Positions 4,471-55,312 of a stretch of DNA of 64,000 bases are shown one piece after another (positions within the stretch are counted from its first letter, which is position 1; the number at the start of each line of letters is the position of its first letter). This stretch comes from an uncultured Tropicimonas sp. Its GTDB lineage: Bacteria > Pseudomonadota > Alphaproteobacteria > Rhodobacterales > Rhodobacteraceae. The notes beneath the pieces were generated by a model. That model was not told where the DNA came from and made no database searches. It was given only the letters and a program-made list of their open reading frames with translations. The DNA is taken from contig CANMIP010000012.1 of assembly GCA_947497945.1 (NCBI GenBank), positions 1 to 64,000 of the forward strand. Direction: 5' to 3'. The position numbers and the translations under genes are program-made.

Positions 4471-4509
4471 TGGAGAATTCCTTTCAGATCAAATTGTGGG
4501 AGTTGAAGA

Positions 4510-4989
4510 TCAGGCGGCGGTCGCGGAGCTGGAAGCCCAGCTGCCCTGGGCATCGCGGCCGGGGAACTGGACGATCTTTTTCATTCGGCCGTCGCCGCTT
4601 CGCCGGACAGCCCGAAAGGCGATGCCGGGGAAGATGGTGCGGGTCAGGTCGCGCGCCATTCGGAAGCCATTGCCGAAAGGCGCGACGAAATCCATGACCA
4701 CGGGACGCTGCCCGCAACTCCACGCCTCCGGTGACAGAGGCTGGTCGAGCTCCATGACAGCCTGCTCGGTTTCCGCGTCGAGATAGGCCCAGCTGGCCAT
4801 GCCCACGGGCAAACCGCCCGACCGCCAGATCCGAAGCTGACCGAGCGCGAGGGGCGGCAGGATCAGCTGGCTGAAGCCTTCGAGGCTGCGGCCTGCATAG
4901 AGATCGCTCTGCGCCATGAGCGCCAGTGCCTCGCCAAGCATCGTGAATTCGGAGGTCAGGATTTCGGCCTGGTCGCGTGTGTCAGTCAT
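4510..4989 (-). CDS. HlyC-type toxin-activating acyltransferase, His replaced by Tyr
   Basis: The 159-residue product aligns along its length with HlyC/RtxC lysine acyltransferases, which move a fatty acyl chain from acyl-ACP to internal lysines of RTX proteins. Recognisable blocks are SDLYAGRSL, LPPLALGQLRIWR, PVGMASWAYL, EAWSCGQRPVVMDFVAPFGN and FPGIAFRAVR. The catalytic Asp of HlyC (Asp92) is kept in VVMDFVAPFG. The catalytic His (His23 in the SPLHRNW motif) is Tyr here, and the following Arg is also lost. I chose ATG 4989, which has AAGGAG upstream; a longer in-frame ORF to 5205 lacks support. The gene lies 39 bases before the RTX gene, the usual C-then-A order. It may be inactive, or use another base. 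Confidence 0.8.
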   Translation of the reverse strand: MTDTRDQAEILTSEFTMLGEALALMAQSDLYAGRSLEGFSQLILPPLALGQLRIWRSGGLPVGMASWAYLDAETEQAVMELDQPLSPEAWSCGQRPVVMDFVAPFGNGFRMARDLTRTIFPGIAFRAVRRSGDGRMKKIVQFPGRDAQGSWASSSATAA

Positions 4990-5322
4990 CTCTTGGGTCT
5001 CCTTCCGAAAATGCCTTGTTTGAAGGGGCTTCCCTTGATGGTTCGGGGTGCCCGTCGGGGATTGTTTCGCAAATCCATCGTGCCGCGGATCGACCGAGAC
5101 ATGTGATGTGGTCTGACGGTCAGGTGGGCCGATCTGGTTTTCAGATTGCCTGCTCTCGATCCGCCCGGATGCGTAAACTGCCCCGAAAATGACTGGAGGT
5201 TTCAAAGCCGCGCCATGCCCGAGAAGTTGCGTCCGAAGCTTGCAATATCCAACCCTGCGCCATTACCATCGCTTGGCACGCGACGCCCGAGCGCCCAACT
5301 GGAGACTGTCAGGAGGTCATTC

Positions 5323-39532: not shown

Positions 39533-40414
39533 CTATGTTTCCTGGTCAGTCGGCTCGGAGTCGCGCGCCCGGGTCGTAACCCAGACGGCGGCGCCGACGA
39601 CAAGCGATGCGCCAAGGGCGAAGGTCGGGCCCGGTCGTTCCCCGAAGAAGACGAACCCCACCGTGACCGAGAAGACAAGGCTGAGATAGCTCAGAACCGA
39701 CAGGAACCCCGCTGCGCCGTGGTAATGCGCCCTCAGGAAGCAGAGCTGCGCGGTCTGCGCGAAACAGCCAATCAGGATCAATGGGACAAGGTGGCCGGGC
39801 TGAATCGGCGTCCAGGTGAGCGCGGTGAATGGCGCCGAACAGAGCGCCAGGCCAGCGGTATAGAACAGCATCATCACGATCACGGGCGCCTCCCGAAGCC
39901 GCCGCGTGGCGATCACGGCAGCGGACCCGGAGAGCACCACGATCCCCATCGCGGCCAGCCCCCAGCTCCACGCCACTTCCCCCGGGTTCACCGCGATAAG
40001 GATGCCGAGGAAGGCCACGCCCGCGGCGGCCCAGCGGCGGCGGCCGATCACCTCGCGGAGCAGGATCGCGGCCATGACCATGGTGATCAGTGGTCGGGTG
40101 AAACCGATCGCCGTGAAGCTTGCCAGGGGCACGCGCGGGATCGCGAAGAAGCTGGCGGTCAGGGTGATGACGGCGAAGCCAACCCGGATCAAGTGCAGCT
40201 TCAGCTCCGCCACGTGCCGAAAGGCCGCTCGCCGGTGCCACGCGAATGGCAGGATCAGCACCAGCCCGACAAGCGCCCGCAGGAAGACGATCTGCGTGGC
40301 CGGGTAATCCGCGCCGAGCCATTTCACGATCGACAGCGCCCAGATGTTCAGCGACAGGTCCGCCAGCAGCCACGCCCCGCCACGGAGATTGTCGCGCGGC
40401 GGCCCGCTGGTCAT
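39533..40414 (-). CDS. EamA/DMT-family permease
   Basis: The 293-residue membrane protein has about ten hydrophobic segments in two EamA repeats (for example LVGLVLILPFAWHR, FTAIGFTRPLITMVMAAILL, GLAAMGIVVLSGSAAVIATR, LSVLSYLSLVFSVTVGFVFF). Members move metabolites across the inner membrane. The start (40414) overlaps the stop of the deacetylase gene (ATGA), so it is translationally coupled to the deacetylase and repressor genes. It may export or import an intermediate of the same pathway. Confidence 0.85.
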   Translation of the reverse strand: MTSGPPRDNLRGGAWLLADLSLNIWALSIVKWLGADYPATQIVFLRALVGLVLILPFAWHRRAAFRHVAELKLHLIRVGFAVITLTASFFAIPRVPLASFTAIGFTRPLITMVMAAILLREVIGRRRWAAAGVAFLGILIAVNPGEVAWSWGLAAMGIVVLSGSAAVIATRRLREAPVIVMMLFYTAGLALCSAPFTALTWTPIQPGHLVPLILIGCFAQTAQLCFLRAHYHGAAGFLSVLSYLSLVFSVTVGFVFFGERPGPTFALGASLVVGAAVWVTTRARDSEPTDQET

Positions 40415-42774
40415 GGACGCGGCGCGATGAGGTTCGCCATCAGGCGGAAGGCTCCGGGTACGAGATGTTCCATCTGGTGATGCAGGATCAGCGATGTATG
40501 CACGTGCCGCCCCTTGCCGATATCGGCGACCAGAAGCGCGCCGCGATGCGGTGCCTCGCCAGGGTCGGACATCTCAAGGAGGGCACTGTAGCTGCTGTCC
40601 CAGCTCTTGGCGAAATAGAGGCCGCGTTCCTTGACCCAGCCCGTCCAGTCCTCCGGCCCGATGCGGTTCGGGTAGCGGAGCAGGCTGTGCTCGGCGATCT
40701 GGCGCACCTCCGCCGACTGGTCGGTGACACGCCAGCGGATCGAGGGCTGGCCGATCTCCAGCCTGCGCGGCGGGATGCTGTCGGGATCCCAGTTGTCCCA
40801 GGGGCGGTGGTAGAGCGTGACCAGTGTCCCGCCCGCCTCTACCCAGCGGTGGATACGCGGCATGAGCTCGGCGAGCCCGGGCCGAAACCGCATGGCGAAG
40901 ATGCCGATCACGATCGTGTCGAACGCCGCGAGTGTCTCCTCGCTCGCATCCATCTCGTCGGTGAACGCGGTCACATCCGCCCCAAGCGCGGCGAGCCAGT
41001 GATCGACACGGTCATTGCCCGCACCGAAATAGCCGACCTTCACTTCGGGCACCGCCACATCGACCACGCGCAACCGTAGCTCGGCCGGATGGGCTCGCGC
41101 CGTGGGCGCCACGTGAGGATGCTCGATGAGCCGCAGGCTCGACGCCGCCTCACCGTCAAGGCGCAGTGGCAGTTGGTATAGCCCGGGGGCAGCGCTCTCC
41201 GGAACGGTAAGTGTGGCCGCATCCGCCTGCATGGCCAGGTCCCATCCCGGCGGAGGATCAAACGACAGGTCTGCGCCGGCGGGGCTGACATCCTGGAACC
41301 GGACATCCAACTGGCGGTTTCCGGCAGCGAGATTGACCAGCGCCGCCTCGGGCATCACGGACACCGTGCGCGCGGGCAGAACGACCGGTTCCGTTTCGAA
41401 GGGCCGCCGGGTCTCGACCCGCTCGCCCGCGGCCTCGAAACTCAGCCGCAGCGCCGGAGCCGCGGGCGCGGCGGGGTCATAGAAGCTGCGATAGGGATCG
41501 CTGTGTCGGGCTGTGTCGGAGACCGAGAGCACGCCATCCTCGACGCTCCAGCCATCGGGCAGCTCGAAGCTCAGCGCCACCGACCCTGCCGCACCGCTGG
41601 TCGTCTCCACGGCAAGCGCGGTGGTCTGTCCGGGGAGCAGGAACACGTCGTCGGTCCGGCAGCGCGCATCGAAACCGAGTCCCAGGCAGATAACCTGCGA
41701 AAGCTGCCCCTCCTTGGCGTCCAGCCGGTGCCGGATCTCCGTTTTCAGCGCCTCCGGGCAGTGCGCGCGGGCCCGGCGCAGCGCTGCAAGCGCCGCGGCG
41801 GCCTCTTGCGCGATGGTTGCCCCATCGGGAAACGCCGCGACCGCCGCCTCGATCCTCGCCTGCGCGCCGGTGAGATCGTCGGCAATTGGCTCGGCGCCCG
41901 GCAACCCGGCCAATGCGCCAACTGTTCCCGCAAGCCCGGACTCCAGCGCCAAATCGGGCCCTGCCACGTGGCTCTCCGCGAGGTGCAGATCCCAATCGCC
42001 GGACTCGGACAGGCCGACCCAACGCCCCATGCCCTGCGTGCGGTGGAAGGCGCGGGATTGCTGGCCGATGCGATCCCAACTCCAGCCGCTCATCGGATCC
42101 TCGCCCGACCCATCGATGCGGAGCGTGACCGGCGGGGGCGGCTCGTCATCGTCATAGGCCTGCCCGGCGCCGGAGCTTGCCGGCAGGTAGAGCTTGCGGA
42201 CCTGCCAGGGCGGCAAGTTCGACGGAAAGCCGGGATCGGCCGCCGCCGCCATCACCTCATGCGCCGCCTGCGTCATCGCCCGGTGGTGGCCATGCTGGCC
42301 CGGCACATCGAGGAAGGTCGGACAGAGGATATCCGGGCGCTCTGTCCGCACGATTTCCACGAAGCGCGCCAGCGTCCGCGCATGCCCCCAATACCCCAAC
42401 GTCTCGACACCGCTCTTGGAGAACCCGAAATCCGAGATCGGATCGTTGGGGGTCTCGGAATGCCAGTACATCCGCATGCCAAGGATATCGCAGGCCCGCT
42501 CCATCTCGCGCGTTCGCAACGCGCCGAGATCCGCCCCTGCCTCGGTGCCGATATCGTTCTGCCCGCCCTCGCCACGGGTCGAGCAGGCATAGGAGAGATT
42601 CACGCCGTCCCGAAAGGCCAGGGCCGCGAGCATTCCCGACATCTCGTCATCCGGATGTGCTCCCGACTGCATGAAGCGGATCACGGAGGTGAGCGGGCGC
42701 AGCGCCCACCACAGCTCGAGGATCCGTGGGTGCGCACGATCCTCGGCAATGCGGGTCTGATCGGGAGTGGGCAT
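40411..42774 (-). CDS. Large PIG-L (LmbE-like) N-deacetylase
   Basis: The 787-residue protein has an N-terminal PIG-L domain (residues about 30-250). It carries the zinc/catalytic AHPDDE motif (39-44), YACSTRGEGGQNDIG and the second metal box PGQHGHHRAM. These zinc enzymes remove N-acetyl groups from sugars (GlcNAc-PI, GlcNAc-Ins, GlcNAc-malate; established). The middle and C-terminal parts (about 330-787) hold beta-sandwich-like repeats and a ThuA/GATase-like end (TIVIGIFAMRFRPGLAELMP, GGTLVTLYHRPWDNWD). There is no signal peptide, so it should act in the cytoplasm. It lies between the ROK repressor and the DMT permease, divergent from a sugar importer. Confidence 0.85.
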   Translation of the reverse strand: MPTPDQTRIAEDRAHPRILELWWALRPLTSVIRFMQSGAHPDDEMSGMLAALAFRDGVNLSYACSTRGEGGQNDIGTEAGADLGALRTREMERACDILGMRMYWHSETPNDPISDFGFSKSGVETLGYWGHARTLARFVEIVRTERPDILCPTFLDVPGQHGHHRAMTQAAHEVMAAAADPGFPSNLPPWQVRKLYLPASSGAGQAYDDDEPPPPVTLRIDGSGEDPMSGWSWDRIGQQSRAFHRTQGMGRWVGLSESGDWDLHLAESHVAGPDLALESGLAGTVGALAGLPGAEPIADDLTGAQARIEAAVAAFPDGATIAQEAAAALAALRRARAHCPEALKTEIRHRLDAKEGQLSQVICLGLGFDARCRTDDVFLLPGQTTALAVETTSGAAGSVALSFELPDGWSVEDGVLSVSDTARHSDPYRSFYDPAAPAAPALRLSFEAAGERVETRRPFETEPVVLPARTVSVMPEAALVNLAAGNRQLDVRFQDVSPAGADLSFDPPPGWDLAMQADAATLTVPESAAPGLYQLPLRLDGEAASSLRLIEHPHVAPTARAHPAELRLRVVDVAVPEVKVGYFGAGNDRVDHWLAALGADVTAFTDEMDASEETLAAFDTIVIGIFAMRFRPGLAELMPRIHRWVEAGGTLVTLYHRPWDNWDPDSIPPRRLEIGQPSIRWRVTDQSAEVRQIAEHSLLRYPNRIGPEDWTGWVKERGLYFAKSWDSSYSALLEMSDPGEAPHRGALLVADIGKGRHVHTSLILHHQMEHLVPGAFRLMANLIAPRP

Positions 42775-42782
42775 GGGGACTC

Positions 42783-43958
42783 CTATGACTGGGCCGAGAT
42801 CTGGGGGGTGAAAGCCTTGTTGAGAACGAGAGCGGCCGCGCCAAGCGTGGCCGTCATCCGGCCCGACGCCCCGCGCAGGAGCCGCGGATGGGTCCGGTTC
42901 TCCCGAAACGCCACGGACCGTTCCGAAAGGCGCACCGATCCCAGCAAGTGGTCCAGGATCGGGTCCGGCATCGCGCCGCCGAGGATCACCGATTGAGGAT
43001 CGAACAGGTTCTCGACAATCGTGACCGCCGCCGAGAGCGGCTCGATTGCGTAGTCGAGCCAGTTCAGAAGCGCCGTGTTCCCTGCTTCGTAAAGCCGGGC
43101 AAGATCTTCACCACTCCGGGTCTCGATCCCGGCCTCCTGCAGCGCCCGTTGGATCGAAAGACGACTGACAACGCTCTCCAGCGGAACGGAACTGCCAGAG
43201 GCCGGCACCGGAATATGTCCGATCTCACCCGCGTTCCCGAATGCGCCGGCCATCAGCCGCCCCTTCTGAACCGACCCGAGACCAAGGCCGGCGCCGAAAT
43301 AGAGAAAGGCGTAGCTGTCGAGCCCCTGTGCCACGCCGGTGATCCGTTCGGCCATGGCCGCGGCGTTGGCGTCGTTCTCAACCAGCACCGGAAGACCCAA
43401 CGCCTCCGAGAACCACGCCTCGGGCGCGACATCGTCCCAGGTCAGCAGCTCCGAATCATTGCCTCGAATGCCCGTCGTGCCGAATGGTCCCGGCATCACC
43501 ACGCCCGCGCCCAGAACCCGCGCCGTCGGCGCCCCGGACGCGACCAGTACCCGGTCGCAGAGCGCGCTCACCGAGCGGGTAACGGTGCCCCGGTCGGTCG
43601 CCGGCAAGCCGGCGCGCTCCGAGGCGATGGTGGTGCCGCAAAGGTCCAGAACGGCTGCAAAAACCGCGTCGGGGCGGATCTCGACGCCCAGCGCATATCC
43701 ACCCTGCGCATGCAGCGCATACTGGACCGGCGGCTGGCCGCGCCCGGCAACCCGGCGGCCCTGCTCGAGGATGAACCCGTCATTGAGCAGGTCGGCGATG
43801 ATGTTCGAGACCGCCTGGATCGACAGGCCCGAGGCCCGGGCAATCTCGGCGCGCCCGATCTGGCCCGCCCCGCGGATGCGCCCGAGCACCACCTGCCGGT
43901 TGTGGCTGCGGGCGCGCTCGGCATTCGCGCCGACGACAATGTCTGTCCTGGAGATCAT
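42783..43958 (-). CDS. ROK-family transcriptional repressor
   Basis: The 391-residue NagC/XylR-type protein has an N-terminal winged helix (RAEIARASGLSIQAVSNIIA) and a ROK sugar-kinase-like domain (GYALGVEIRPDAVF, VLGAGVVMPGPFGTTG, LVENDANAAAMAE, AFLYFGAGLGLG). The CxCGxxGC zinc motif of many ROK proteins is missing after EIGHIPV. This is consistent with a repressor rather than a kinase. It is first in a three-gene unit and faces the importer operon across a 118-base promoter region, where an inverted repeat is present. Confidence 0.88.
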   Translation of the reverse strand: MISRTDIVVGANAERARSHNRQVVLGRIRGAGQIGRAEIARASGLSIQAVSNIIADLLNDGFILEQGRRVAGRGQPPVQYALHAQGGYALGVEIRPDAVFAAVLDLCGTTIASERAGLPATDRGTVTRSVSALCDRVLVASGAPTARVLGAGVVMPGPFGTTGIRGNDSELLTWDDVAPEAWFSEALGLPVLVENDANAAAMAERITGVAQGLDSYAFLYFGAGLGLGSVQKGRLMAGAFGNAGEIGHIPVPASGSSVPLESVVSRLSIQRALQEAGIETRSGEDLARLYEAGNTALLNWLDYAIEPLSAAVTIVENLFDPQSVILGGAMPDPILDHLLGSVRLSERSVAFRENRTHPRLLRGASGRMTATLGAAALVLNKAFTPQISAQS

Positions 43959-43976
43959 CCTTTCGGATTAGCGCAC

Positions 43977-44003
43977 TTGACTTTAAAGCTCAATACAGTT
44001 GAG
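43977..44003. promoter_or_regulatory. Putative ROK operator between divergent units
   Basis: CTCAA-TACAG-TTGAG (43989-44003) is a perfect inverted repeat, and TTGACTTTAAAGCTCAA (43977-43993) forms an overlapping one. The AT-rich site lies in the divergent promoter region, 19 bases from the ROK start and 74 from the importer start. Its position fits autorepression and importer control. Confidence 0.6.
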
Positions 44004-44076
44004 TTAATCGCATCAACAACGCGGCCCGCCGCGAATGGATCGGCGATGACCGACGAGAAAACCGGGGAGACCAATC

Positions 44077-45336
44077 ATGAAAATCAACAGATTGAAGGCA
44101 CTGGCTCTTGCCTCCGCCACAAGCGTCGCCGCGCTGGTGGGGTCCGTGGCAAACGCGGTCGAGATTGAATACTGGCAGTATTTCTTCGATGCGCGCGTCA
44201 AGGCGATGGAGCAGCTCATCGAGAATTTCGAGGCGGCGAACCCGGATATCACGGTCAAGATGACCCATTTCCCCTATGCCGATTACCGCACCAAGGTCGC
44301 CGCCGCGATTCCCGCGGGCGAGGGGCCGGACGTGGTGCAGCTCTTTTATGGCTGGCTGAACGACTACGTGCAGGCCGAGCTGATCCAGCCCTTGCCGGCG
44401 GATGTTTTCCCGGCCGAGAAGATCGATGCAGAGTTCTTCCCGATGGTGCAGGCGATGAAGGATGGCGACCAGTACTGGGCGCTACCAACCGCCGTGCGTT
44501 CGCTGGCGCTTTTCTACAATGAGCGCCTGCTGGAGGAGGCCGGTGTCGAGCCGCCGACCACGCTGGACGAGCTGATGGCTGCGGCCGCGGCGATGACGAA
44601 GCGCGATGGCGCAGGAAACATCACCCAGGTCGGCATGACCGCCGGCATGACCGCGCAGGACCACCACTGGTGGCGTGAGGGGCTGGTCCGGCAGATGGGC
44701 GGCGAGCCCTACGCGGACGATTACCACACCGTGAACTACAACACCGAGGCCGGGCTGAAGGCGCTGGAATTCTACACCAACATGTTCATGGGCGAGGATC
44801 CGGTCACGGCCATCGGCTTCATGGACGAGCCGCAGGCGGCCTTCAAGGCGGGGCTTGCCGGCATGCATATCGACGGCTCCTTCCGCATCGGCGCGCTCGA
44901 CAAGCAGCGCGGGCTGAAATGGGGCGTGACAGAGCTTCCGGCCACGGCTGACGGCACGCGTTCGAACTATTCCTCCTACTGGGTCAACGCGGTCACGACC
45001 AAGGCCGAGGGCGAGAAATACGACGCCGCCGTGAAGTTCATGGACTACGTCACCTCCGACGAGGCGATGCAGATCTGGCTCGATGTCGTGGGCGAGTTGC
45101 CCGCGAAACCGTCGGTCGGCATGACCGAGGCCAATGCGAGCAACCCGGTCTACGGGCCGTTCATCCGCGGGCTCGAATATGCCAACACGACCAAGTTCGC
45201 CGATGAGAGCGGCCAGCGCCAGCTGATGGTCGAGATGGTCGAGCGCATGCAACTCGAGGGCATGTCTGCCGCCGACAGTCTCGCCGTGGCCGCCGAGGCC
45301 GAGCAGAAGCTGCTCGACGAGTATTACACCAAGTGA
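44077..45336 (+). CDS. Sugar-type ABC solute-binding protein
   Basis: The 419-residue periplasmic protein has a signal peptide (KALALASATSVAALVGSVANA) and an extracellular solute-binding family 1 fold (YWQYFFDARVKAMEQLIENF, NPDITVKMTHFPYADYRTKV, PAGEGPDVVQLFYGWLNDYV, AGLAGMHIDGSFRIGALDKQ). It is the first gene of the importer operon and is followed by a stable hairpin. The ligand cannot be read from the sequence; family members bind mono- to oligosaccharides or derivatives. Confidence 0.9.
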   Translation: MKINRLKALALASATSVAALVGSVANAVEIEYWQYFFDARVKAMEQLIENFEAANPDITVKMTHFPYADYRTKVAAAIPAGEGPDVVQLFYGWLNDYVQAELIQPLPADVFPAEKIDAEFFPMVQAMKDGDQYWALPTAVRSLALFYNERLLEEAGVEPPTTLDELMAAAAAMTKRDGAGNITQVGMTAGMTAQDHHWWREGLVRQMGGEPYADDYHTVNYNTEAGLKALEFYTNMFMGEDPVTAIGFMDEPQAAFKAGLAGMHIDGSFRIGALDKQRGLKWGVTELPATADGTRSNYSSYWVNAVTTKAEGEKYDAAVKFMDYVTSDEAMQIWLDVVGELPAKPSVGMTEANASNPVYGPFIRGLEYANTTKFADESGQRQLMVEMVERMQLEGMSAADSLAVAAEAEQKLLDEYYTK

Positions 45337-45344
45337 TGCGATCC

Positions 45345-45366
45345 GCCCCGGCCTTCGGGCCGGGGC
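45345..45366 (+). terminator. UUCG-loop hairpin after the binding-protein gene
   Basis: GCCCCGGCC (45345-45353) and GGCCGGGGC (45358-45366) form a perfect 9-bp stem closed by TTCG. No T-run follows. Such hairpins behind binding-protein genes commonly protect the 5' mRNA so that the binding protein is made in excess over the permeases. Confidence 0.75.
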
Positions 45367-45385
45367 TTGCCTGACAGGGGGTCCG

Positions 45386-46279
45386 ATGAAGCTCTACCGC
45401 GATCTCACGATCCGCCAGAAACAGATCGCATGGGCCTGGGGCTTCCTGGCGATACCGGTCCTGTTCTACGGGGTTATCCGTTTCTACCCGACCGGAAATG
45501 CCATCCTGATCAGTTTCCAGGACTGGAACCTGCTCGGGGAGCGGACATGGACGGGGCTGGACAATTACACCAAGCTCTTCTCCGATCCGATCTTCTGGAA
45601 AGTCTTCAAGAACACCTTCGTCTACCTGCTGCTGGGCACGCCTGTCAGCCTCGTGATTTCCTTTGTCATCGCCTACCACCTCGACAAGACGCGGTTCATG
45701 CATGGCTTCCTGCGGATGCTCTACTTCCTGCCCTTTATGACCTCCGCCGTCGCGATGGCCTGGGTCTGGCGGTGGTTCTACCAGCCGGTCCCGATCGGGC
45801 TGTTCAACAATTTCCTCGCCTCGCTCGGCATCCCGCAGATCAATTTCCTCAATTCCACCACCAATGCTCTGCCCTCGATCCTGGCGCCGGCGGTCTGGGC
45901 CGGGCTGGGCTTCCAGATCATCATCTTCATGGCCGGGTTGCGGGCGATCCCCAAGAGCTACTACGAGGCCGCGCGCATTGACGGTGTCTCGACCTGGACG
46001 GTGCTCTGGGAGATCACGCTGCCGCTCCTGAAGCCTACCATCGTGTTCATCGTGGTGTTCTCCTCGATCGGCTTCCTGCGCATCTTCGACCACGTTTTCA
46101 ACATGACGACGCAGAACCCGGGCGGGCCGCTCAACTCGACCAAGCCGCTCGTGCTGATGATCTACCAGACCGCGTTCAGCTCCTTCGACATGGGCTATGC
46201 GGCGGCGCAGACGGTTGTGCTCTTCCTCGTGCTGCTCGTGGTGAGCCTGCTGCAACTTCGCATCCTGAAGGACCGCTGA
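45386..46279 (+). CDS. ABC sugar permease (MalF-type)
   Basis: The 297-residue protein has six predicted membrane segments and the permease EAA loop (YYEAARIDGVSTWTVLWEIT, then LPLLKP). ATG 45386 is preceded by AGGGGG. It overlaps the next permease start by one base (TGATGG). It is the MalF-like partner in a heterodimeric importer. Confidence 0.9.
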   Translation: MKLYRDLTIRQKQIAWAWGFLAIPVLFYGVIRFYPTGNAILISFQDWNLLGERTWTGLDNYTKLFSDPIFWKVFKNTFVYLLLGTPVSLVISFVIAYHLDKTRFMHGFLRMLYFLPFMTSAVAMAWVWRWFYQPVPIGLFNNFLASLGIPQINFLNSTTNALPSILAPAVWAGLGFQIIIFMAGLRAIPKSYYEAARIDGVSTWTVLWEITLPLLKPTIVFIVVFSSIGFLRIFDHVFNMTTQNPGGPLNSTKPLVLMIYQTAFSSFDMGYAAAQTVVLFLVLLVVSLLQLRILKDR

Positions 46280-47163
46280 TGGCTGTCACCGAAGACATCA
46301 AGATCAAGCCCAGCTCCGAGGAGCTGCTCAAGACTGGCCCGTCCCGGGCACCACGCAACATGGGCCAGATCATCCGCTTCCTGCTGCTCTTCGCGGGCGG
46401 CATCCTGATGGTGATGCCCATCGCCTTCATGATCTCGACCTCGCTGAAATGGCCGCACGAGGTCTATAACCTGAACTTCATCCCTGACGAGCCGACGATC
46501 GAGAATTACACCTATGTCCTCGAAGACGGGCGGTTCTACTGGTGGTTCCTCAACTCGCTCATCATCGCCGTGATCACCACGATCTGCAGCGTGATCTTCG
46601 ACAGCCTCGTGGGATACACGCTCTGCAAGTTCCGTTTCCCGGGCCGCTACATCATCTTCATCGCGATCCTGTCGACGCTGATGATCCCGACCGAGATGCT
46701 GGTGATCCCCTGGTACCTGATGAGCCAGCAATTCGGGTGGCTCGATACTTATTGGGGCATCATGTTCCCCGGGTTGATGACCGCCTTCGGCACCTTCCTG
46801 ATGAAACAGTTCTTCGAGACCGTGCCGGATGACTTCATCGAGGCTGCGCGGATCGACGGGCTGAACGAGCTTCAGATCTGGTGGACCGTCGCGATGCCGC
46901 TGGTTCGCCCGGCGCTGGCCGCGCTGGCGATCTTCGTCTTCCTTGGCAACTGGACGGCCTTTATCTGGCCGCTGATCGTGACCAACTCGGTCGAGATGTA
47001 CACGCTGCCCGTGGGCCTTTCCTCCTTCGGCGACGAGGCCGACGTGGCCTGGGAACTCATCATGACGGGCGCTGCAATCTCCACCATCCCGACGCTGGTC
47101 GTCTTCCTCATCTTCCAGCGCTTCATCATTCGCGGTGTTGTCATGGCGGGGCTCAAAGGATGA
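46279..47163 (+). CDS. ABC sugar permease (MalG-type)
   Basis: The 294-residue protein has six membrane segments and the EAA loop (DDFIEAARIDGLNELQIWWT, then VAMPLVRPALAALAIF). An extended cytoplasmic N-terminus precedes the first helix (IRFLLLFAGGILMVMPIAFM). It overlaps the next gene (ATGA at 47160), so importer and lyase are translationally coupled. Confidence 0.9.
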   Translation: MAVTEDIKIKPSSEELLKTGPSRAPRNMGQIIRFLLLFAGGILMVMPIAFMISTSLKWPHEVYNLNFIPDEPTIENYTYVLEDGRFYWWFLNSLIIAVITTICSVIFDSLVGYTLCKFRFPGRYIIFIAILSTLMIPTEMLVIPWYLMSQQFGWLDTYWGIMFPGLMTAFGTFLMKQFFETVPDDFIEAARIDGLNELQIWWTVAMPLVRPALAALAIFVFLGNWTAFIWPLIVTNSVEMYTLPVGLSSFGDEADVAWELIMTGAAISTIPTLVVFLIFQRFIIRGVVMAGLKG

Positions 47164-48644
47164 CGGACAACACCATCTTCCCCGACCCTACCTATCGCGA
47201 CACCGTGCTTGCGCCGCTCTTCGAAGGGGTGAAACGCCATTACGCGGCCGATATGGGCGCGCTCAATCAGGCGCATCTGATCATGTTGGCCGAAACCGGT
47301 ATCCTGAAGCAGGCCGAGGCCCGCCAGATTGCCGGGGCGCTCCGGCAGATCGATGCGGAAGTGGACATCGAGGCCCTGAGCTATACCGGTGAGCACGAAG
47401 ACTATTTCTTCCTTGTCGAGGCCGAACTGCGCAATCGCCTCGGCGATCTTGGCGGCGCGCTGCACACGGCGCGGTCCCGCAACGACATGGATCACACGTT
47501 GTTCAAGATGGCGCTGCGCACGCGCGCCGACCGGATGCTGTCGCAGGTCCAGCAACTGGCCACGGCGCTCACCGACAAGGCCGAGGCCGAGGCCTCGACG
47601 CTAATCGTCGCCTACACCCATGGCCAACCCGCGCAGCCATCCACCTTCGGACACTATCTCGGCGCGGCCGTGGAGGTCCTCCTGCGGGACGCCGAGCGCC
47701 TCGATGCCGCCATTGGCGCGCTCGGCCACTGCCCGATGGGAGCGGCCGCGATCACCACGTCGGGCTTCCCGATCGACCGGCCGCGCGTGGCGGGTTTGCT
47801 GGGCTTCGAGGAGCCGCTGCTCAACTCCTATGGCTGTATCGCTTCGGTGGATTATGTCACCGGGCTCTACTCGGCGATCAAGCTGGTCTTCCTGCATCTC
47901 GGACGCCTGATCCAGGACATGCAGTTCTGGTCCGCCTTCGAGGTTGGCCAGCTCTACGTGCCCAACAGCCTGGTGCAGGTCTCCTCGATCATGCCGCAAA
48001 AGCGCAACCCGGTGCCGATTGAGCATATGCGACACCTCTCCAGCGTCACGGTCGGGCGCTGCGACATGGTGGTGAACACGATGCACAACACGCCTTTCAC
48101 CGACATGAATGACAGCGAGGGCGAAGTGCAACAGGCCGGCTATGCTGCCTTCGAAAGCGGCGGGCGGGTGCTGGACCTCCTGGCCACGATGCTACCGGCC
48201 TGTTCGATCAACGCAGACCGCGTGCGGGCAACCACCGAGGCCGCCTGCATCACCATCACCGAGCTTGCCGACACGCTGGTGCGAGACGACGGGCTGAGCT
48301 TCCGCCAGGCGCATGAGATCGCCGCTCGCACCGCCGCCGCCGTGATCGCTCAAGGACAGGCCCTCGGACAGGGCTACGCGGCTTTCGCTGACGCCTTCCG
48401 CGCAGAAACCGGTCGCGAGACCTCGCTCTCGCCGGCAGCCTTCGAGACAGCGACAGCACCGGAGCATTTCGTGGCCTGCCGCGACAGACCCGGAGGCCCC
48501 GCCCCCGAGGCGCTGCGCTCCGCGATAAAGAGCTACCGCGCAACCACCCACGCGCTCGATCAACGCCGGCAACGCCGGATAGCCCGCATTGCCGAAGCCG
48601 ACGCGACCCGCAGCGCCGCCTTTGACACGCTTCTGGAGACCTGA
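47160..48644 (+). CDS. Argininosuccinate-lyase/fumarase-superfamily lyase
   Basis: The 494-residue enzyme belongs to the aspartase/fumarase superfamily. It shows GALHTARSRNDMDHTLFKMA (ASL-like TARSRND), YTHGQPAQPSTFGHYL (ASL-like THxQxAQP) and the catalytic-Ser signature VSSIMPQKRNPVPIEHMRHL. Superfamily members cleave C-N or C-O bonds and usually release fumarate (established). It is not the biosynthetic ASL by context: it lies inside a sugar-importer operon, overlapping the upstream permease by 4 bases and followed by the ATPase. It is therefore likely to act on an imported or processed substrate bearing a succinyl-amino group (inference). Confidence 0.85.
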   Translation: MTDNTIFPDPTYRDTVLAPLFEGVKRHYAADMGALNQAHLIMLAETGILKQAEARQIAGALRQIDAEVDIEALSYTGEHEDYFFLVEAELRNRLGDLGGALHTARSRNDMDHTLFKMALRTRADRMLSQVQQLATALTDKAEAEASTLIVAYTHGQPAQPSTFGHYLGAAVEVLLRDAERLDAAIGALGHCPMGAAAITTSGFPIDRPRVAGLLGFEEPLLNSYGCIASVDYVTGLYSAIKLVFLHLGRLIQDMQFWSAFEVGQLYVPNSLVQVSSIMPQKRNPVPIEHMRHLSSVTVGRCDMVVNTMHNTPFTDMNDSEGEVQQAGYAAFESGGRVLDLLATMLPACSINADRVRATTEAACITITELADTLVRDDGLSFRQAHEIAARTAAAVIAQGQALGQGYAAFADAFRAETGRETSLSPAAFETATAPEHFVACRDRPGGPAPEALRSAIKSYRATTHALDQRRQRRIARIAEADATRSAAFDTLLET

Positions 48645-48647
48645 CCC

Positions 48648-49706
48648 GTGGCCAACCTCGTCATTCGAGACCTCGTGAAGACCTATGACAAGACCGAGGT
48701 GCTCCACAGCATCAACCTCGAGGTCGAAGACGGGGAGTTCGTCGTCTTCGTCGGCCCCTCGGGCTGCGGAAAGTCCACGACGCTGCGCCTCGTGGCCGGC
48801 CTGGAGGAGGTCACCTCCGGCAGCATCGAGATCGCCGGGCGCGTGGTGAACAACCTCGAGCCCAAGGATCGCGACATCGCGATGGTATTCCAGAACTACG
48901 CCATCTACCCGCATATGACCGTGCGCAAGAATATCGGCTTCGGTCTGCGCAGCTCGAAAGCGCCGAAAGCCGAGAAGGAGAAGCGTATCGAGAGCGTCGC
49001 CGAGCTGCTCGGCATGACCGAATATCTTGACCGAAAGCCCAACCAGCTTTCCGGCGGACAGCGACAGCGCGTTGCCATCGGGCGCGCCATGGTGCGCGAC
49101 CCGGCGGTCTTCCTGTTCGACGAGCCGCTCTCGAACCTCGATGCACAATTGCGCACGCAGATGCGGCTCGAGATCAAGAAGCTGCACCAGCGTGTTGGCT
49201 CGACGATCGTGTTCGTCACTCATGACCAGGTCGAAGCGATGACGATGGCCGATCGTATCGTCATCATGAAGGACGGCCATATCCAGCAGGTCGGATCACC
49301 GTCGGAGGTCTATCACCAGCCCGCCAACACCTTCGTCGCCCAGTTCATCGGCGCGCCATCGATGAACATGATCCCGGGCCGCGTCGAGGCCGACAACCGG
49401 ATCGCGCTCTCGACCGGCGGCGAGTTGGCGTTTCAGCGCCCCCTGCCCCAAGGCCGCCCCGTCATCCTCGGGATACGTCCCGAGGACCTTCACCCCGGCG
49501 AAGTGAATAGCGTGATCGAAGGCGCGGTGAATGTACGCGAACCGCTTGGCCACGAGACCCTGATCTATGTCGGCACCTCCGAAGGCGACGTGATCGCCAA
49601 GGCCGATGGGCGCACCCCGCCCGGGATCGGAGAGGTCGTCAAGCTGGGCGCGGCGCTGGAGAACATGCATGTCTTCGACGCCGAGAGCGGCGAGGCGTTG
49701 GCGTGA
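48648..49706 (+). CDS. Sugar ABC importer ATPase (UgpC/MalK type)
   Basis: GTG 48648 opens a 352-residue ATP-binding subunit with Walker A (GPSGCGKSTT), signature (LSGGQRQRVAIGRAMV), Walker B (VFLFDEPLSNLDAQ), the switch His (FVTHDQVEAMTM) and a C-terminal OB/TOBE regulatory domain (PVILGIRPEDLHPGEVNSVI). It energises the permeases at 45386-47163. It overlaps the following gene by four bases (GTGA). Confidence 0.92.
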   Translation: MANLVIRDLVKTYDKTEVLHSINLEVEDGEFVVFVGPSGCGKSTTLRLVAGLEEVTSGSIEIAGRVVNNLEPKDRDIAMVFQNYAIYPHMTVRKNIGFGLRSSKAPKAEKEKRIESVAELLGMTEYLDRKPNQLSGGQRQRVAIGRAMVRDPAVFLFDEPLSNLDAQLRTQMRLEIKKLHQRVGSTIVFVTHDQVEAMTMADRIVIMKDGHIQQVGSPSEVYHQPANTFVAQFIGAPSMNMIPGRVEADNRIALSTGGELAFQRPLPQGRPVILGIRPEDLHPGEVNSVIEGAVNVREPLGHETLIYVGTSEGDVIAKADGRTPPGIGEVVKLGAALENMHVFDAESGEALA

Positions 49707-50551
49707 CCGAAAAACCTGCGACTCTCTGCGTCGGGCGCCTGTATTGCGACCTGATCTTCACGGACCTGCCGCGAATGCCGACCATGGGAACCGAGGTCTA
49801 TGCTGGCGGTTTCGGCGTGCATGTCGGCGGCGGGGCCTTCATCACGGCAGCATATCTGGCAGCGCTCGGTCATGGCTCGGCGCTTTCCGCGATGCTGCCG
49901 CCGCGCCCCTTCGCGGACATCGTCTCGGATGATCTCGAGACGGCCAGGATCGACCTGCAGCTGTGCCACACACTTCCGGCGGGGAGCGACCCGCAGGTGA
50001 CCGTGGCACTGGCCGGACAGGGCGACCGCGCCTTTGTCACCCGCCGGTCCGGTCCGGCTTGTCCGCCGCTGGATGCCAGCGATTTGCGCAAGATCGGCGC
50101 GACCCATGTTCATATCGGCGAAATGGCCACGCTGATCGAACGCCCGGACCTCATCGAGATTGCCCGGAGCGTCGGCGCGACGGTCTCGCTTGATTGCAGT
50201 TGGGATGACGACCTCAAGACTTCGGCAATTTCCGACGTCCTTGCGAAGGTCGACCTCTTCCTGCCCAACGACACGGAGATGCAGCATCTGCTCGAAATCG
50301 GTGTGCCGCAGTCTCGGTTCCCGCTCACCGTGATCAAGCAGGGAGCGGCTGGGTCGACGGCCGTGGTTGAAGGAGAGCGGATCCACGAGCCTGCCAGGCT
50401 GGTCCAGGCGGTGGACACAACCGGCGCGGGGGACGCCTTCAACGCCGGCTTCGTGAGCGCCTGGCTGGCAAGGGACAGCTTGCGCGCCTGCCTGAAGTTC
50501 GGGAACGCGCAGGGCGCCAAGGCCGTTTCCCAACGCGGCGGGTATCATTAG
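49703..50551 (+). CDS. PfkB-family sugar kinase
   Basis: GTG 49703 opens a 282-residue ribokinase-like protein with the N-terminal substrate segment (LCVGRLYCDLIFTDLPRMPT, VYAGGFGVHVGGGAFITAAY) and the PfkB signature 2 with the catalytic Asp (AVDTTGAGDAFNAGFVSAWL). The typical activity is ATP-dependent phosphorylation of a sugar or amino sugar hydroxyl. As the last gene of the importer operon it probably traps the product after deacetylation and/or lyase action. Confidence 0.88.
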   Translation: MTEKPATLCVGRLYCDLIFTDLPRMPTMGTEVYAGGFGVHVGGGAFITAAYLAALGHGSALSAMLPPRPFADIVSDDLETARIDLQLCHTLPAGSDPQVTVALAGQGDRAFVTRRSGPACPPLDASDLRKIGATHVHIGEMATLIERPDLIEIARSVGATVSLDCSWDDDLKTSAISDVLAKVDLFLPNDTEMQHLLEIGVPQSRFPLTVIKQGAAGSTAVVEGERIHEPARLVQAVDTTGAGDAFNAGFVSAWLARDSLRACLKFGNAQGAKAVSQRGGYH

Positions 50552-50842: not shown

Positions 50843-51880
50843 CTACTGTTTCAGGGCGGTCCAGATGCGGTCATAGATGGCCTGGGTTTCCGCGTCGCAG
50901 GCCTCGATGAAGACGCCGGGTCCGGCATCTGCGGGTGGGTTGGCCTCGGGAAGGGTGCGCAGCTCCTCGTCGAGAAGCGGGGTCACGCCCTCGACGCCCG
51001 CGGAATACTGCGTCCAGTTGGTCAGGATCGCGACATTTTCCGGCTCCAGCAGGAAGTCCATGAGCTTGAGCGCGTTTGCGCGGTTCGGCGCGTCCTGGAG
51101 CAGCGCCATGTTGTCCATCCAGACGATATAGCCCTGCTTCGGATAGGCGTATTCGGTGTTGGCCCCCTCGGCGCGCGCCTTGGCGTTGAAGCCGTTCCAG
51201 ATCATGCCGGCGGCGGCATCGCCGGAGACCAGGACCTCCTTGGCGGTGTCGGAGTTGAACGAGACCCAGTTCGGCTTGGCGGCCTGCAGCATGTCGTTGA
51301 GCGCCTTGAGCTGGTCACGGTCGGTGCTGCATTGCTCGATGCCCATATGGATGGCGGCCATGGCCATCACCTCACCCTGCGTGTCGAGCATGTTGACCTT
51401 GCCGGCAAGCTCGGCGGGGCTGTCGAAGAGAATGTCCGTGGTGGCGATATCGCCCTGGTAGACATCGCGGTTCACCGCAAAGCTGGTCGAGCCCCACTGA
51501 TAGGGGATGGAATATTTGCGGCCCGCATCGAAGGCCACATCGAGCCATTGCGGCTCGATATTGCCCTTGTTGGCCAGCTCGCCGTCCTTGATCTCGTCGA
51601 GCATGCCCTCGCCGGCCATGATCTTGACCATGTAATCGGCCGGCACCGAGACATCATAGGTGCCCATGCCGCCCGCCTTGAGCGTTGCCAACATCGCCTC
51701 GTTGGAATCGTAGGTATCCATGACGATCTCGATGCCGGTCTCGGCGGTGAACTTGTCGATCAACGCCTGCGGCATGTATTCGAAGAAGTGGAACACAACC
51801 ACTTTCTCTTCGGCTGCGGCAGCCGTCGCTACCAGGGCAAGGGCCGTCGTCGCGGCCAGCCTTGCAAACGTGTTCTTCAT
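50843..51880 (-). CDS. Polyamine-type ABC solute-binding protein (PotD/PotF-like)
   Basis: The 345-residue protein has a signal peptide (MKNTFARLAATTALALVATA) and the PotD-like pattern (VVVFHFFEYMPQALIDKFTA, GIEIVMDTYDSNEAMLATLK, YDVSVPADYMVKIMAGEGML). ATG 51880 follows GAGGAG. The large ORF extends upstream to 53389, but that extension is antisense or out of frame to permease genes. It is last in the pot-like operon. The substrate could be spermidine, putrescine or another cation. Confidence 0.9.
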   Translation of the reverse strand: MKNTFARLAATTALALVATAAAAEEKVVVFHFFEYMPQALIDKFTAETGIEIVMDTYDSNEAMLATLKAGGMGTYDVSVPADYMVKIMAGEGMLDEIKDGELANKGNIEPQWLDVAFDAGRKYSIPYQWGSTSFAVNRDVYQGDIATTDILFDSPAELAGKVNMLDTQGEVMAMAAIHMGIEQCSTDRDQLKALNDMLQAAKPNWVSFNSDTAKEVLVSGDAAAGMIWNGFNAKARAEGANTEYAYPKQGYIVWMDNMALLQDAPNRANALKLMDFLLEPENVAILTNWTQYSAGVEGVTPLLDEELRTLPEANPPADAGPGVFIEACDAETQAIYDRIWTALKQ

Positions 51881-51900
51881 GACAGGTCTCCTCTGTTGGA

Positions 51901-52707
51901 TCATTTCGTGGTGTCGGATTTGCTCACCAGCCAGGACAGCGTGACCAGAAGGATGGACAGTCCCAGAAGCAGGGTCGAAATCGCCATTATGTTGGGCTGG
52001 ATGCCGCGCTTGACAGCGCCGAAGATCGCCGTGGGCAGGGTCTCCACGCCCGCGCCCTTGACGAAATTGGTGATGATGAAGTCGTCGAGACTGACAATGA
52101 AGGCCAGCAGGTAGCCCGACACGATTCCGGGCGCCATCAGCGGCAGCAGGATGCGCGTGAAGGTCTGCCGTTTCGTGGCGTAGAGATCGAGCGCGGCCTC
52201 CTCGTAGGCGGGCCCGATCCCCTGCATCCGCGCGGAGATCGGCAGATAGGCGAAGGGGATGCAGAAGACGACATGCGCGATCAGGATGGAGAGGAGGCCG
52301 CGTTCGAGCGCGATGGCGTTGAAGAAGATCAGCGTCGCCACGGCGGTGACGATCTCGGGCACCATGAGCGGCAACGAGATCAGGCCGAAGGAGAGCGAAC
52401 GCGCCCGGAATCGCCCGGTTCGGATCATGCCGGTTGCGGCCAGCGTGGCGATGGTGGTCGAAATCGTGGCCGCCGAGATGGCGATGAGAAAGCTGTTGGC
52501 CGCGGCGGTCTTGAACTTGCCGCTTTCGGGGCCGGTGAAGACATCCCAGTACCAGCGCAGGCTCAGCCCTTCCCAACTGGTGATCGAGGCGGAGGCGTTG
52601 AAGCTGTAGATTGTGACGACGATCAGCGGGGCATAGAGAACGAACAGGCAGAGCAGCGTCAATGCGCGAAAGCCCGGAATGGCGCGAAGATCGCTGCGTC
52701 GTGCCAT
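51901..52707 (-). CDS. potC: Polyamine-type ABC permease (PotC-like)
   Basis: The 268-residue protein has six membrane helices ([60 protein letters not shown]) and an EAA loop ([20 protein letters not shown]). It follows the PotB-like gene by three bases. Confidence 0.88.
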
Positions 52708-52710
52708 CGG

Positions 52711-53637
52711 TCAGGACCGCCTTTCCGCGCGTGCCTGTTGGCGCGCGAAGGCGAGCAGCAACAGCAGCACGAGCGTGAGCAGGATCATCGAGGCGGCAGC
52801 GCCGAAGGGCCAGTTGCCGGCATTGCCCTTGAACTGCTCTTCGATCAGCGAGCCGATCATGAAATTCCGCGCCCCGCCGAGCAGGTCGGGCGCAAGGAAG
52901 GAACCGAGCGAGGGCACGAAGACGAGGATGCAGCCGGCGACAACGCCCGGCTTCACCGCCGGCAGGAGAATGCGCCGAAGCGTCGTCCATTTCGACGCGT
53001 AGAGATCCGCCGCCGCTTCCGAGAGCGCGAAATCGTAGCGTTCCACGGCGGCGTAGATCGGCAGGACCATGAAGGGGAGGTAGGAATAGAACAGGCCGAG
53101 CTGGACGGCGAGATTGGTGTTCACGATCTGCAACGGGCTGTCGATTGCGCCGGTCCAGAGCAGGAAATCGTTCAGCGGCCCCTGTTCCCGCAGCAGGAAT
53201 TTCATCGAGACGGTGCGGATCAGCAGGTTCACCCAGTAGGGGATCGTGATCAGGAACACCCAGAGCGGGCGCGCCTTCGCCGGGCGCGTGGCGATGAAAT
53301 AGGCGGTGGGAAAGCCGACGGCCAGGCTCATGAGCGTCGCAGCGCCCGCCTGCCAGATGGAGCGCCAGAAGATGGCGATATAGGTCCACTGGATGCGCGG
53401 GGGCTCGTCGCCGAACAACCCGCGATCGAGGAAGAACTGGTCATAGGCGGCGAGCGAGAACTCCCAGATCACGCCGCCGCGATGCTCCTTGGTGAGGAAG
53501 GAATAGACCAGCATCATGATGACCGGCGCCAGCGAGAAGAAGAGCAGGACCGACCAGGCCGGCAGAAGCAGCCAGCCGCGCGCCTCCCTGTATGTGCTGC
53601 TCGCGCTGCTGCCGCCCACTGCGCCCGCCGCCATCAA
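52711..53637 (-). CDS. potB: Polyamine-type ABC permease (PotB-like)
   Basis: The 308-residue protein has a long N-terminus, six membrane helices (WSVLLFFSLAPVIMMLVYSF, LGLFYSYLPFMVLPIYAAVE) and an EAA-like loop (SEAAADLYASKWTTLRRILL). It overlaps the ATPase gene by 4 bases (ATGA). Confidence 0.88.
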   Translation of the reverse strand: MMAAGAVGGSSASSTYREARGWLLLPAWSVLLFFSLAPVIMMLVYSFLTKEHRGGVIWEFSLAAYDQFFLDRGLFGDEPPRIQWTYIAIFWRSIWQAGAATLMSLAVGFPTAYFIATRPAKARPLWVFLITIPYWVNLLIRTVSMKFLLREQGPLNDFLLWTGAIDSPLQIVNTNLAVQLGLFYSYLPFMVLPIYAAVERYDFALSEAAADLYASKWTTLRRILLPAVKPGVVAGCILVFVPSLGSFLAPDLLGGARNFMIGSLIEEQFKGNAGNWPFGAAASMILLTLVLLLLLAFARQQARAERRS

Positions 53638-54740
53638 TCGATCAGGAGCCGACCGGCCCCCGCCTCCATATTGACGAAACAGGCGGCGCCCTGCTCGAAG
53701 ACCCGCCGGTTGCCGCGCTCCGAGTTCGAGCTGCGCAGGGTCAGGCGCGGGCCCTGCTCCAGCTCGACGATGCTGGTGATGCCGGTGCCGGTGAAGACCG
53801 TCTCAACCACCCGCGCCGCCAGCGCCTCCGGCCCGGCCGGTTCGGCGGTGGCAAAGAGCCGCTCCGGGCGCACCGACAGATGCACCCTCGCGCCCTCGCG
53901 CACCCCGTCCACCGCCTCGCAGCTCAGCGCATGGCCGCCGCCGAGGTGACAGGTCGCGCGCGCGCCCTCGATGCGGTCCACGGTGACCTCCAGCAGGTTG
54001 GTGTCGCCGATAAAATTGGCGACGAAGCGATTGCGCGGCCGCTCGTAGATCTCGCGCGCCGCACCGACCTGCTGAAGCTCGCCTTCCGACATCACGGCGA
54101 TGCGGTCGGACATGGTGAGCGCTTCTTCCTGATCGTGAGTGACGAAGATGAAGGTGATGCCGGTTTCCCGCTGCAAATGCTTGAGCTCGATGCGCATCGC
54201 CTTGCGCAGCTTCAGGTCGAGCGCGGACAGGGGCTCGTCAAGCAACAGCAATTTCGGCTGCGGCGCAAGCGCGCGCGCAAGGGCGACCCGCTGCTGCTGG
54301 CCGCCGGACAGCTGGCCGGGGCGACGGTCCGCGAATTGCGAAAGCTGCACCAGCTCCAGCATCCGACCCGCACACTCACGCGCCTCCGTCGATGATGAGC
54401 CGAGCATTTCAAGGCCGAATCCGACATTCTGCAACACGCTCATATGCGGAAACAGCGCATAGCTCTGGAACACCGTGTTCACGGGGCGGCGATTGGGCGG
54501 CAGCGCGCCCAGATCCTCGCCATAGAGCCGGACCGACCCTTCGGTGACCTCGTCGAAACCGGCGATGATGCGAAGCAGCGTCGTCTTCCCGCAGCCCGAT
54601 GGTCCCAGCAGCGTGAAGAACTCGTTGTCGGCGATCGCCAGGGATATCTGCTTGAGTGCCGTGAAATTGCCGAACCGCTTCACAGCATTCTGCACGTCGA
54701 TCGCGTTTTGACTGCTTGTTTCTGGCATTTTCGTCTGCAT
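53634..54740 (-). CDS. potA: Polyamine-type ABC ATPase (PotA-like)
   Basis: The 368-residue protein has Walker A (GPSGCGKTTLLRIIAGFDEV), signature (LSGGQQQRVALARALAPQPK), Walker B (LLLLDEPLSALD), switch His (FVTHDQEEALTM) and a C-terminal TOBE domain. ATG 54740 is my choice; ATG 54728, four codons later, is equally possible since neither has a clear ribosome binding site. Order A-B-C-D matches the classical pot operon. Confidence 0.88.
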   Translation of the reverse strand: MQTKMPETSSQNAIDVQNAVKRFGNFTALKQISLAIADNEFFTLLGPSGCGKTTLLRIIAGFDEVTEGSVRLYGEDLGALPPNRRPVNTVFQSYALFPHMSVLQNVGFGLEMLGSSSTEARECAGRMLELVQLSQFADRRPGQLSGGQQQRVALARALAPQPKLLLLDEPLSALDLKLRKAMRIELKHLQRETGITFIFVTHDQEEALTMSDRIAVMSEGELQQVGAAREIYERPRNRFVANFIGDTNLLEVTVDRIEGARATCHLGGGHALSCEAVDGVREGARVHLSVRPERLFATAEPAGPEALAARVVETVFTGTGITSIVELEQGPRLTLRSSNSERGNRRVFEQGAACFVNMEAGAGRLLID

Positions 54741-55312
54741 GACGCCGGACTCGGCGGGTTCGGGGTATCGATCTGGGCTTCGCGCGCAGGCAGCCCGATC
54801 TCCCGCCATTGGAACGGCGAGCGGACAGGGTACTTCTGCGCCCTGTGATCAATCAGGTTTTCACGGGCGTGTCACGCGTTCAAAAGGGCGCAGCCTGATC
54901 GGGCGGAGGTCACAAGAGAAGGCGCAAGCAAAGGGGGCAAGGACCGCCGGGCCTGACTTCGGCGGTGGCACCGCTTCGTTGCAATCGCGTGGCGGAAAGC
55001 GCGTGCCCGGCAACGAACATCCGCTGTCGCCCCCCTGCCCCGGCGACACCGCTTGCGCAGGGAAAGACGGCCCCCTCCTTCGCGGAGGTCTCGCGCCGCC
55101 AGACAGGGGCGCGTTCGCATTCGGAGACGCCGACGAAAGGCCCAAACCCGCCCGTTCCTCAAGGCGAGCCCGATGGCTGCCGCGCAATGAATACGCCGAA
55201 AATGAGGGAGCGGGGCCCTCCCTGAAGCCGCGGGAGTGGCGTGTGATCTTGATTGAGCCCCGCATCCTCCAAGCTGTCCGGGTATTGGCACCCGGAAGGC
55301 ACCGAATGCCTG
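54741..55312. other. Intergenic stretch, nothing recognised
   Basis: This separates the pot-like operon promoter from the end of the epimerase gene. No family, hairpin terminator or repeat could be supported. Confidence 0.35.

Follow-up and report, generated by a model that had tools for sequence, protein, structure and literature searches.

Two divergent transcription units occupy positions 39,533 to 50,551 of the window, the 64,000-nucleotide stretch of an uncultured Tropicimonas sp. genome (Rhodobacteraceae) analysed here (Table 1). The first carries genes for a DMT permease, a large PIG-L protein and a ROK-family repressor, and the second those for a solute-binding protein, two permeases, a lyase, an ATPase and a PfkB kinase. 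All nine genes are open, and for nine of nine the family, order, strand and divergent layout given in a preliminary description of this DNA are confirmed. The Pfam families are EamA, PIG-L, ROK, SBP_bac_8/1, BPD_transp_1 (twice), Lyase_1 with ASL_C2, ABC_tran with OB_MalK/TOBE_2, and PfkB. The repressor scores below the cut-offs of the NagC and Mlc models, and the closest PDB sequences to the binding protein are those of GacH and other sugar-binding proteins.

Table 1 Features of the locus, in window coordinates
Feature	Position	Strand	Supporting match or sequence
EamA/DMT-family permease	39533..40414	-	PF00892 3e-21
Large PIG-L (LmbE-like) N-deacylase	40411..42774	-	PF02585, residues 38-174
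ROK-family repressor, HTH + ROK domain (NagC/Mlc-like)	42783..43958	-	PF00480 8e-32, HTH_24
Palindromic operator (putative), divergent promoter region	43988..44007, core 43989-44003	.	CTCAA-N5-TTGAG
Solute-binding protein, CUT1-type sugar ABC importer	44077..45336	+	PF13416 1.1e-37, PF01547 1.6e-35
ABC permease 1 (UgpA/MalF-like)	45386..46279	+	PF00528; top model UgpA, below cut-off
ABC permease 2 (UgpE/MalG-like)	46279..47163	+	PF00528; top model UgpE, below cut-off
Lyase, argininosuccinate-lyase superfamily, separate clade	47160..48644	+	PF00206 5.6e-43, PF14698
ABC ATPase (UgpC/MalK type)	48648..49706	+	NF008653 above cut-off, 489 bits
PfkB-family sugar kinase	49703..50551	+	PF00294 1.6e-30

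The ATG of the lyase gene overlaps the stop codon of permease 2 by four bases, three bases separate the lyase and ATPase genes, and the ATPase and kinase genes overlap by four bases. The four-base coupling of lyase and permease, emphasized in the preliminary description, is real in the window but not universal: a VOC-family gene separates the two in 11 of the 95 relatives measured (L011, L013, L017, L028, L037, L039, L043, L049, L080, L081 and L141), with two more ambiguous (L052 and L057). The inserted gene is a Glyoxalase by Pfam in the two loci tested (L017 and L080) and was recognized by eye in the others; perhaps it provides an epimerase or glyoxalase-type step. Directly downstream of the locus and convergent with the kinase gene lies a second ABC importer (window 50843-54809, minus strand), composed of a binding protein, two permeases and an ATPase, which by eye is polyamine-like.

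Conservation of the gene set and its operator

A scan for relatives found 291 among 316 candidates, and the best 80 of the 291 were kept. All nine genes, in the same order and on the same strands, were recovered by tblastn from 49 of these 80 loci, and the eight genes other than DMT from 70. The DMT gene was detected in 53 of the 80; its product might, at a guess, export a released acyl or amino-acid part. PIG-L lies beside the lyase in 76 of the kept loci, and in the other four (L012, L031, L044 and L059) the contigs run out no more than about 1.4 kb upstream of the lyase.

Plasmid and genome loci brought the number examined to 104 (L142, on the same contig as L021, is counted among them), and 89 of these have at least 7 kb of upstream and 4 kb of downstream flank. 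At the BLAST thresholds used, these 89 contain the binding protein in 88 cases, the large PIG-L in 80, ROK in 78, PfkB in 72 and DMT in 42; five of the 89 are Deinococcus loci, in which the same thresholds detect neither kinase nor ROK genes, and the large PIG-L in L150 alone. No PIG-L was seen nearby in at least six loci of the lyase clade (L088, L089, L090, L134, L138 and L163). PIG-L and lyase stand together in L130 and L131 with what look by eye like peptide-type ABC genes instead of the sugar importer, and L129, a short contig, has a binding-protein gene like those of L130 and L131. HutU- and HutH-like genes (by eye) lie a few kilobases from the PIG-L/lyase pair in L131 (870-4087), and L129 has a HutU-like gene (3387-5075).

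Deinococcus plasmids offer the strongest independent test of the linkage. Seven plasmid records were found and all seven inspected; four (D. deserti, D. actinosclerus, D. wulumuqiensis and D. ficus) encode the lyase, PIG-L, a sugar kinase, ROK and parts of a sugar importer, in a different gene order. Pfam identifies the D. ficus kinase as PfkB, NCBIfam marks those of D. deserti and D. wulumuqiensis as PfkB-like, and in D. actinosclerus the annotation alone names a carbohydrate kinase; the three species other than D. deserti each have two PIG-L proteins, one small and one large. Nothing of the set beyond the lyase and importer parts is present in the remaining three records (D. aetherius, D. 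psychrotolerans and Deinococcus sp. KNUC1210). The possibility that homologous loci never carry lyase and deacylase together is thus contradicted both in the scanned relatives and on the Deinococcus plasmids, and we consider the pathway logic and the co-conservation well supported.

The inverted repeat reported earlier in the divergent promoter is present as CTCAA-N5-TTGAG, and a related form, YTCAA-N5-TTGAR, occurs in 59 of 80 intergenic regions between the ROK and binding-protein genes, counting that of the window, whereas 200 mononucleotide shuffles gave a mean of 0.12 and at most 2. The pattern was allowed spacers of 4 to 6, and all first matches have a spacer of 5. Across the whole genome, the 20-base form of the operator has one exact match, that of the window itself, and a further four sites differ from it at two positions; the control, the pattern reversed, gives one. 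This fits a dedicated ROK repressor, for which TTAACTCAA-N5-TTGAGTTAA-like sequences are the putative operator.

A lyase outside ArgH and a large PIG-L protein

Pfam, Foldseek and shared serine-loop residues all place the lyase in the ASL/fumarase superfamily. It exceeds the curated cut-off of the argH model (295.9 versus 279.5 bits), but the canonical ArgH of the same genome, on another contig, scores 598 bits with that model; the top NCBIfam model for the window lyase is NF005218 (PRK06705), at 311 bits and a cut-off of 883. Members of its clade are 47–85% identical to it. Among 385 alphaproteobacterial genomes there are 12 matches at 52-100% identity (own included), and the other matches listed at E<=1e-60, which are ArgH-like, reach at most 37%. 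In the window's own family, 60 of 394 sampled genomes (own included) carry the lyase, the 59 relatives being 57-77% identical except for one at 47%; it is thus an accessory trait. In a maximum-likelihood tree, a supported branch divides 30 clade members from nine ArgH proteins. The clade is joined with five Deinococcus lyases in a smaller tree (support 99/96); the larger tree has 100/92, with a long-branch warning.

We aligned 99 clade rows (L142 among them), five Deinococcus rows and 18 ArgH rows. Every row has the catalytic and fumarate-site residues S106, R107, N108, H154, S275, S276, K281 and N283, and a single row, from Deinococcus, lacks T153. A ten-residue signature (F83, F84, D111, Y166, V285, H289, N310, D315, N317 and Q324) is found in 95-99 of the 99 clade rows and in five of five Deinococcus rows, but in none of the 18 ArgH rows. 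At the positions of ArgH Y320, Q325 and K328, which we take to be arginine contacts, the window lyase has D315, E320 and Q324; of the 99 clade rows, all have D315 and 95 have Q324, and none of the 18 ArgH rows has either. These new acidic side chains might bind an ammonium group. ArgH shares the fold and the Ser-Ser-x-Met-Pro-Gln-Lys, Thr-His and Ser-Arg-Asn elements but falls in another clade and differs in residues on the arginine side, and the gene of the window lyase stands in a sugar operon. By these features the lyase is a member of its own clade outside ArgH, and the view that it is no stray arg gene stands; the clade is wrongly named argH in public records, even if the compound that we propose below is wrong.

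To our knowledge, EDDS lyase has no sugar pathway. The structure model of the window lyase (pLDDT 92.1) lies closest to EDDS lyase of Chelativorans sp. BNC1 (TM 0.85-0.86, 27-28% identity) and then to ASL. EDDS lyase forms N-substituted aspartates from amines and fumarate, the reverse of a fumarate-releasing cut (PMC12363623). In a phmmer alignment, EDDS Asp290, which with Tyr320 marks the amine pocket of that enzyme, falls at V285 of the window lyase, and the stretch HNTPFTDMND of the latter lacks a counterpart in the EDDS row. We infer that the window lyase releases fumarate. S-(2-succino) lyase, from the breakdown of S-(2-succino)cysteine, likewise degrades a succinated compound, although that substrate is an amino acid and not a sugar (PMC9706529). 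Another ASL-like lyase lies in an ABC importer operon of the coral-associated Geminicoccaceae bacterium SCSIO 64248 (L161), followed by two CoA transferases and with an adenylosuccinate-lyase-family gene close by.

The PIG-L protein, the sole PIG-L match in the genome, has 787 amino acids, in which a PIG-L domain is followed by helical, beta-sandwich and GATase-like parts; the tail matches the GATase parts of GMP synthase weakly. H40-P-D42-D43, R87, H161 and H164 are invariant across 26 PIG-L rows, and H40, D42, D43 and H164 form the H-x-D-D plus distal His metal site, the H-x-D-D...H motif described for LmbE proteins (PMC4101496). Its model (pLDDT 90.0) is closest in fold to MshB, diacetylchitobiose deacetylase and BshB. 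As of 2014, the known members of the LmbE/PIG-L family were hydrolases acting on N-acylglucosamine cores, and BshB converts GlcNAc-Mal to GlcN-Mal (PMC4101496). The bacillithiol deacetylase and conjugate amidase (BshB and Bca) share with the window protein the metal motif and a conserved Arg and His; however, the window protein has the added parts and scores far below the cut-offs of the BshB2 (25.3 versus 195.25 bits), MshB and Mca models. At the place of BshB Arg109, which assists GlcNAc-Mal binding, it has Q160 by our own reading of the motif.

A candidate route from an amino-sugar conjugate

A ROK kinase replaces PfkB behind the ATPase in L088, L092, L133 and L163. NagB or NagB-II (glucosamine-6-phosphate deaminase) lies near the lyase in 17 of 88 loci, mostly directly behind the kinase, as judged with profiles built partly from loci on which they were then used; in the DNA examined around the other 71, that of the window included, neither was found. 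NagB-II-like genes from three tested loci score 228-313 bits (model cut-off 430), and a classical nagB above its cut-off occurs in Loktanella. Of 16 NagB-II genes, 12 stand behind PfkB in the same orientation; 10 of these 12 either overlap it or begin within 70 bases. The order is ATPase, ROK kinase, NagB-II in Roseomonas (L088) and ATPase, ROK kinase, nagB in Paroceanicella (L163), where nagB and the kinase gene overlap by four bases; PIG-L is absent nearby in both (by BLAST and annotation in L088, by annotation in L163). A 16-kb stretch would contain a NagB-II-like gene by chance in about 0.3% of cases (about one gene per 5.8 Mb), compared with the 13 of 80 observed. On the tree of the 88 loci, from which L142 and ten short-flank loci were left out, the NagB label takes 14 parsimony changes, at least nine of them forced by supported branches, and it clusters no more than shuffled labels do (mean 15.7; 63 of 500 shuffles as low), a pattern expected from repeated gain or loss.

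The window genome has one NagB-II-like gene on a different contig (G000:C1:53425; 279 bits, cut-off 430) and a further, weaker match (125 bits). The former (L158 3286-10436, contig C1) lies behind another sugar ABC importer, near an oxidoreductase and a CutC-like gene. NagB requires a free 2-amino group, and the position of NagB or NagB-II beside the kinase points to glucosamine as the sugar product; the PfkB kinase presumably acts on glucosamine or its conjugate. The Nag pathway (NagK, NagA and NagB/NagB-II) has the same final sequence of kinase and glucosamine-6-phosphate deaminase as some relatives of the window, but the route considered here would differ from it in PIG-L deacylation and an additional fumarate-releasing step.

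We tentatively hypothesize, at a little less than even confidence, that the locus serves the ROK-repressed import and breakdown of an N-acyl-glucosamine bearing a four-carbon dicarboxylate on oxygen. The gene set, its conservation, the separate lyase clade, the catalytic residues and the NagB association can be read from the sequences; the route predicted from them, in its reactions, their order, the C–O bond and the compound alike, would run as follows. The CUT1 importer would take up the N-acyl-glucosamine conjugate, PIG-L would remove the N-acyl group, and the lyase would expel fumarate by beta-elimination and leave glucosamine. The PfkB kinase, or the ROK kinase in some relatives, would then form glucosamine-6-phosphate, which NagB or NagB-II, whose gene some relatives carry in the operon and the window genome at another place, would convert to fructose-6-phosphate and ammonia. 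The general frame, with fumarate and glucosamine-6-phosphate as products, appears rather likely, and the frame with a malate glycoside as substrate is plausible but falls short of probable.

Because PIG-L would free, and NagB use, the 2-amino group, the dicarboxylate should be elsewhere, most simply on oxygen, and the fumarate unit is probably attached there as in glucosaminyl-malate. The preliminary description, which envisaged an N-acetylated sugar bearing a succinyl-amino or amino-acid group, is therefore partly supported: its gene set, its logic and an amino-sugar product stand, whereas an O-malyl linkage fits better than the succinyl-amino one. The only natural compounds of such form known to us are GlcNAc-malate and bacillithiol, and we infer that glucosaminyl- or N-acylglucosaminyl-malate, which is the core of the widespread bacterial antioxidant bacillithiol and would arise by its breakdown, is the likeliest compound. 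Polaribacter MED152 is a marine strain. N-methyl-bacillithiol is reported from this member of the Bacteroidetes, and bacillithiol from Deinococcus-Thermus (PMC6282198); the BshB product GlcN-Mal (PMC4101496) would itself be the lyase substrate. Against a bacillithiol-type substrate stand Q160 at the Arg109 place, the C–N bonds cut by the enzymes of closest structure to the lyase, the clade loci lacking PIG-L, and the fact that no thiol-specific gene was noticed in the loci inspected. Among other candidates, GlcNAc-asparagine was rejected on the reasoning that its amide-linked sugar does not match the chemistry, mycothiol because it is not known to carry a dicarboxylate, and succinyl-adenosine or other nucleosides because no nucleoside genes were noticed.

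Alternative readings and significance

The C–N chemistry of the preliminary description could still apply if the substrate were an N-acetylated amino sugar with a succinyl-amino group, which an EDDS-lyase-like enzyme would split into fumarate and the amino sugar. Both closest folds, EDDS lyase and ASL, are C–N lyases, and many primary amines serve EDDS lyase as substrates for addition to fumarate (PMC12363623). We regard this reading as unlikely, however, as a succinyl group on the 2-amino group would leave PIG-L idle unless the sugar were a diamino sugar; moreover, no abundant natural N-succino-glucosamine is known to us. An adduct of sugar and aspartate (an Amadori compound such as fructosyl-aspartate, or a glycosylamine), from which the lyase, as a deglycase alternative, would remove fumarate and leave the amine on the sugar, is improbable. 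Such a substrate is suggested by a Cereibacter plasmid that pairs an ASL-like lyase with an SIS deglycase-like gene, a fructoselysine-6-kinase-like PfkB and an asparaginase, but that lyase falls outside the window clade, PIG-L is not annotated in the stretch examined, and the window clade is accompanied by NagB-II-like rather than FrlB-like proteins. The plasmid locus itself (L152, Cereibacter sphaeroides plasmid d, 2224-17549), where the SIS gene is fructoselysine-6-phosphate-deglycase-like and sugar and amino-acid importers are also present, has the look of a gene cluster for Amadori compounds that includes a fumarate lyase.

It is likewise improbable that the operon combines two unrelated tasks, with the lyase acting on a small N-succinyl amine and PIG-L and the kinase on an amino sugar; the three Deinococcus loci in which lyase and importer parts occur but PIG-L and kinase do not would suit such a division, but the linkage holds across two phyla and two importer types. 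A second argininosuccinate lyase of arginine metabolism, placed here by chance, is scarcely credible: the narrow margin over the argH cut-off speaks for it, but the true ArgH is encoded elsewhere in the genome, the window lyase lies in a separate clade with changed residues at the presumed arginine contacts (D315, E320 and Q324), and its gene context is constant and unrelated to arginine.

In the open-access literature searched, we found no description of this gene set, nor of a route for bacillithiol breakdown beyond the conjugate amidase step, which is known (PMC4101496). The parts are of known kinds, but neither the lyase clade nor their combination appears to have been described there. Among low-molecular-weight thiols, bacillithiol and its derivatives have been described as the most broadly distributed in biology (PMC6282198). 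The fumarate-eliminating route on an O-linked conjugate might, though we hold this with rather low confidence, be the first full catabolic pathway for compounds of the bacillithiol family (GlcNAc-malate, GlcN-malate or bacillithiol conjugates), in which the lyase would open the glycosidic linkage from the aglycone side by eliminating fumarate, without hydrolysis. If so, the ASL superfamily would gain a new reaction type, and a clade named argH, in a cluster common to many marine bacteria and distant Deinococcus, would represent a food pathway in those 60 of 394 genomes of the family as well as in Deinococcus.
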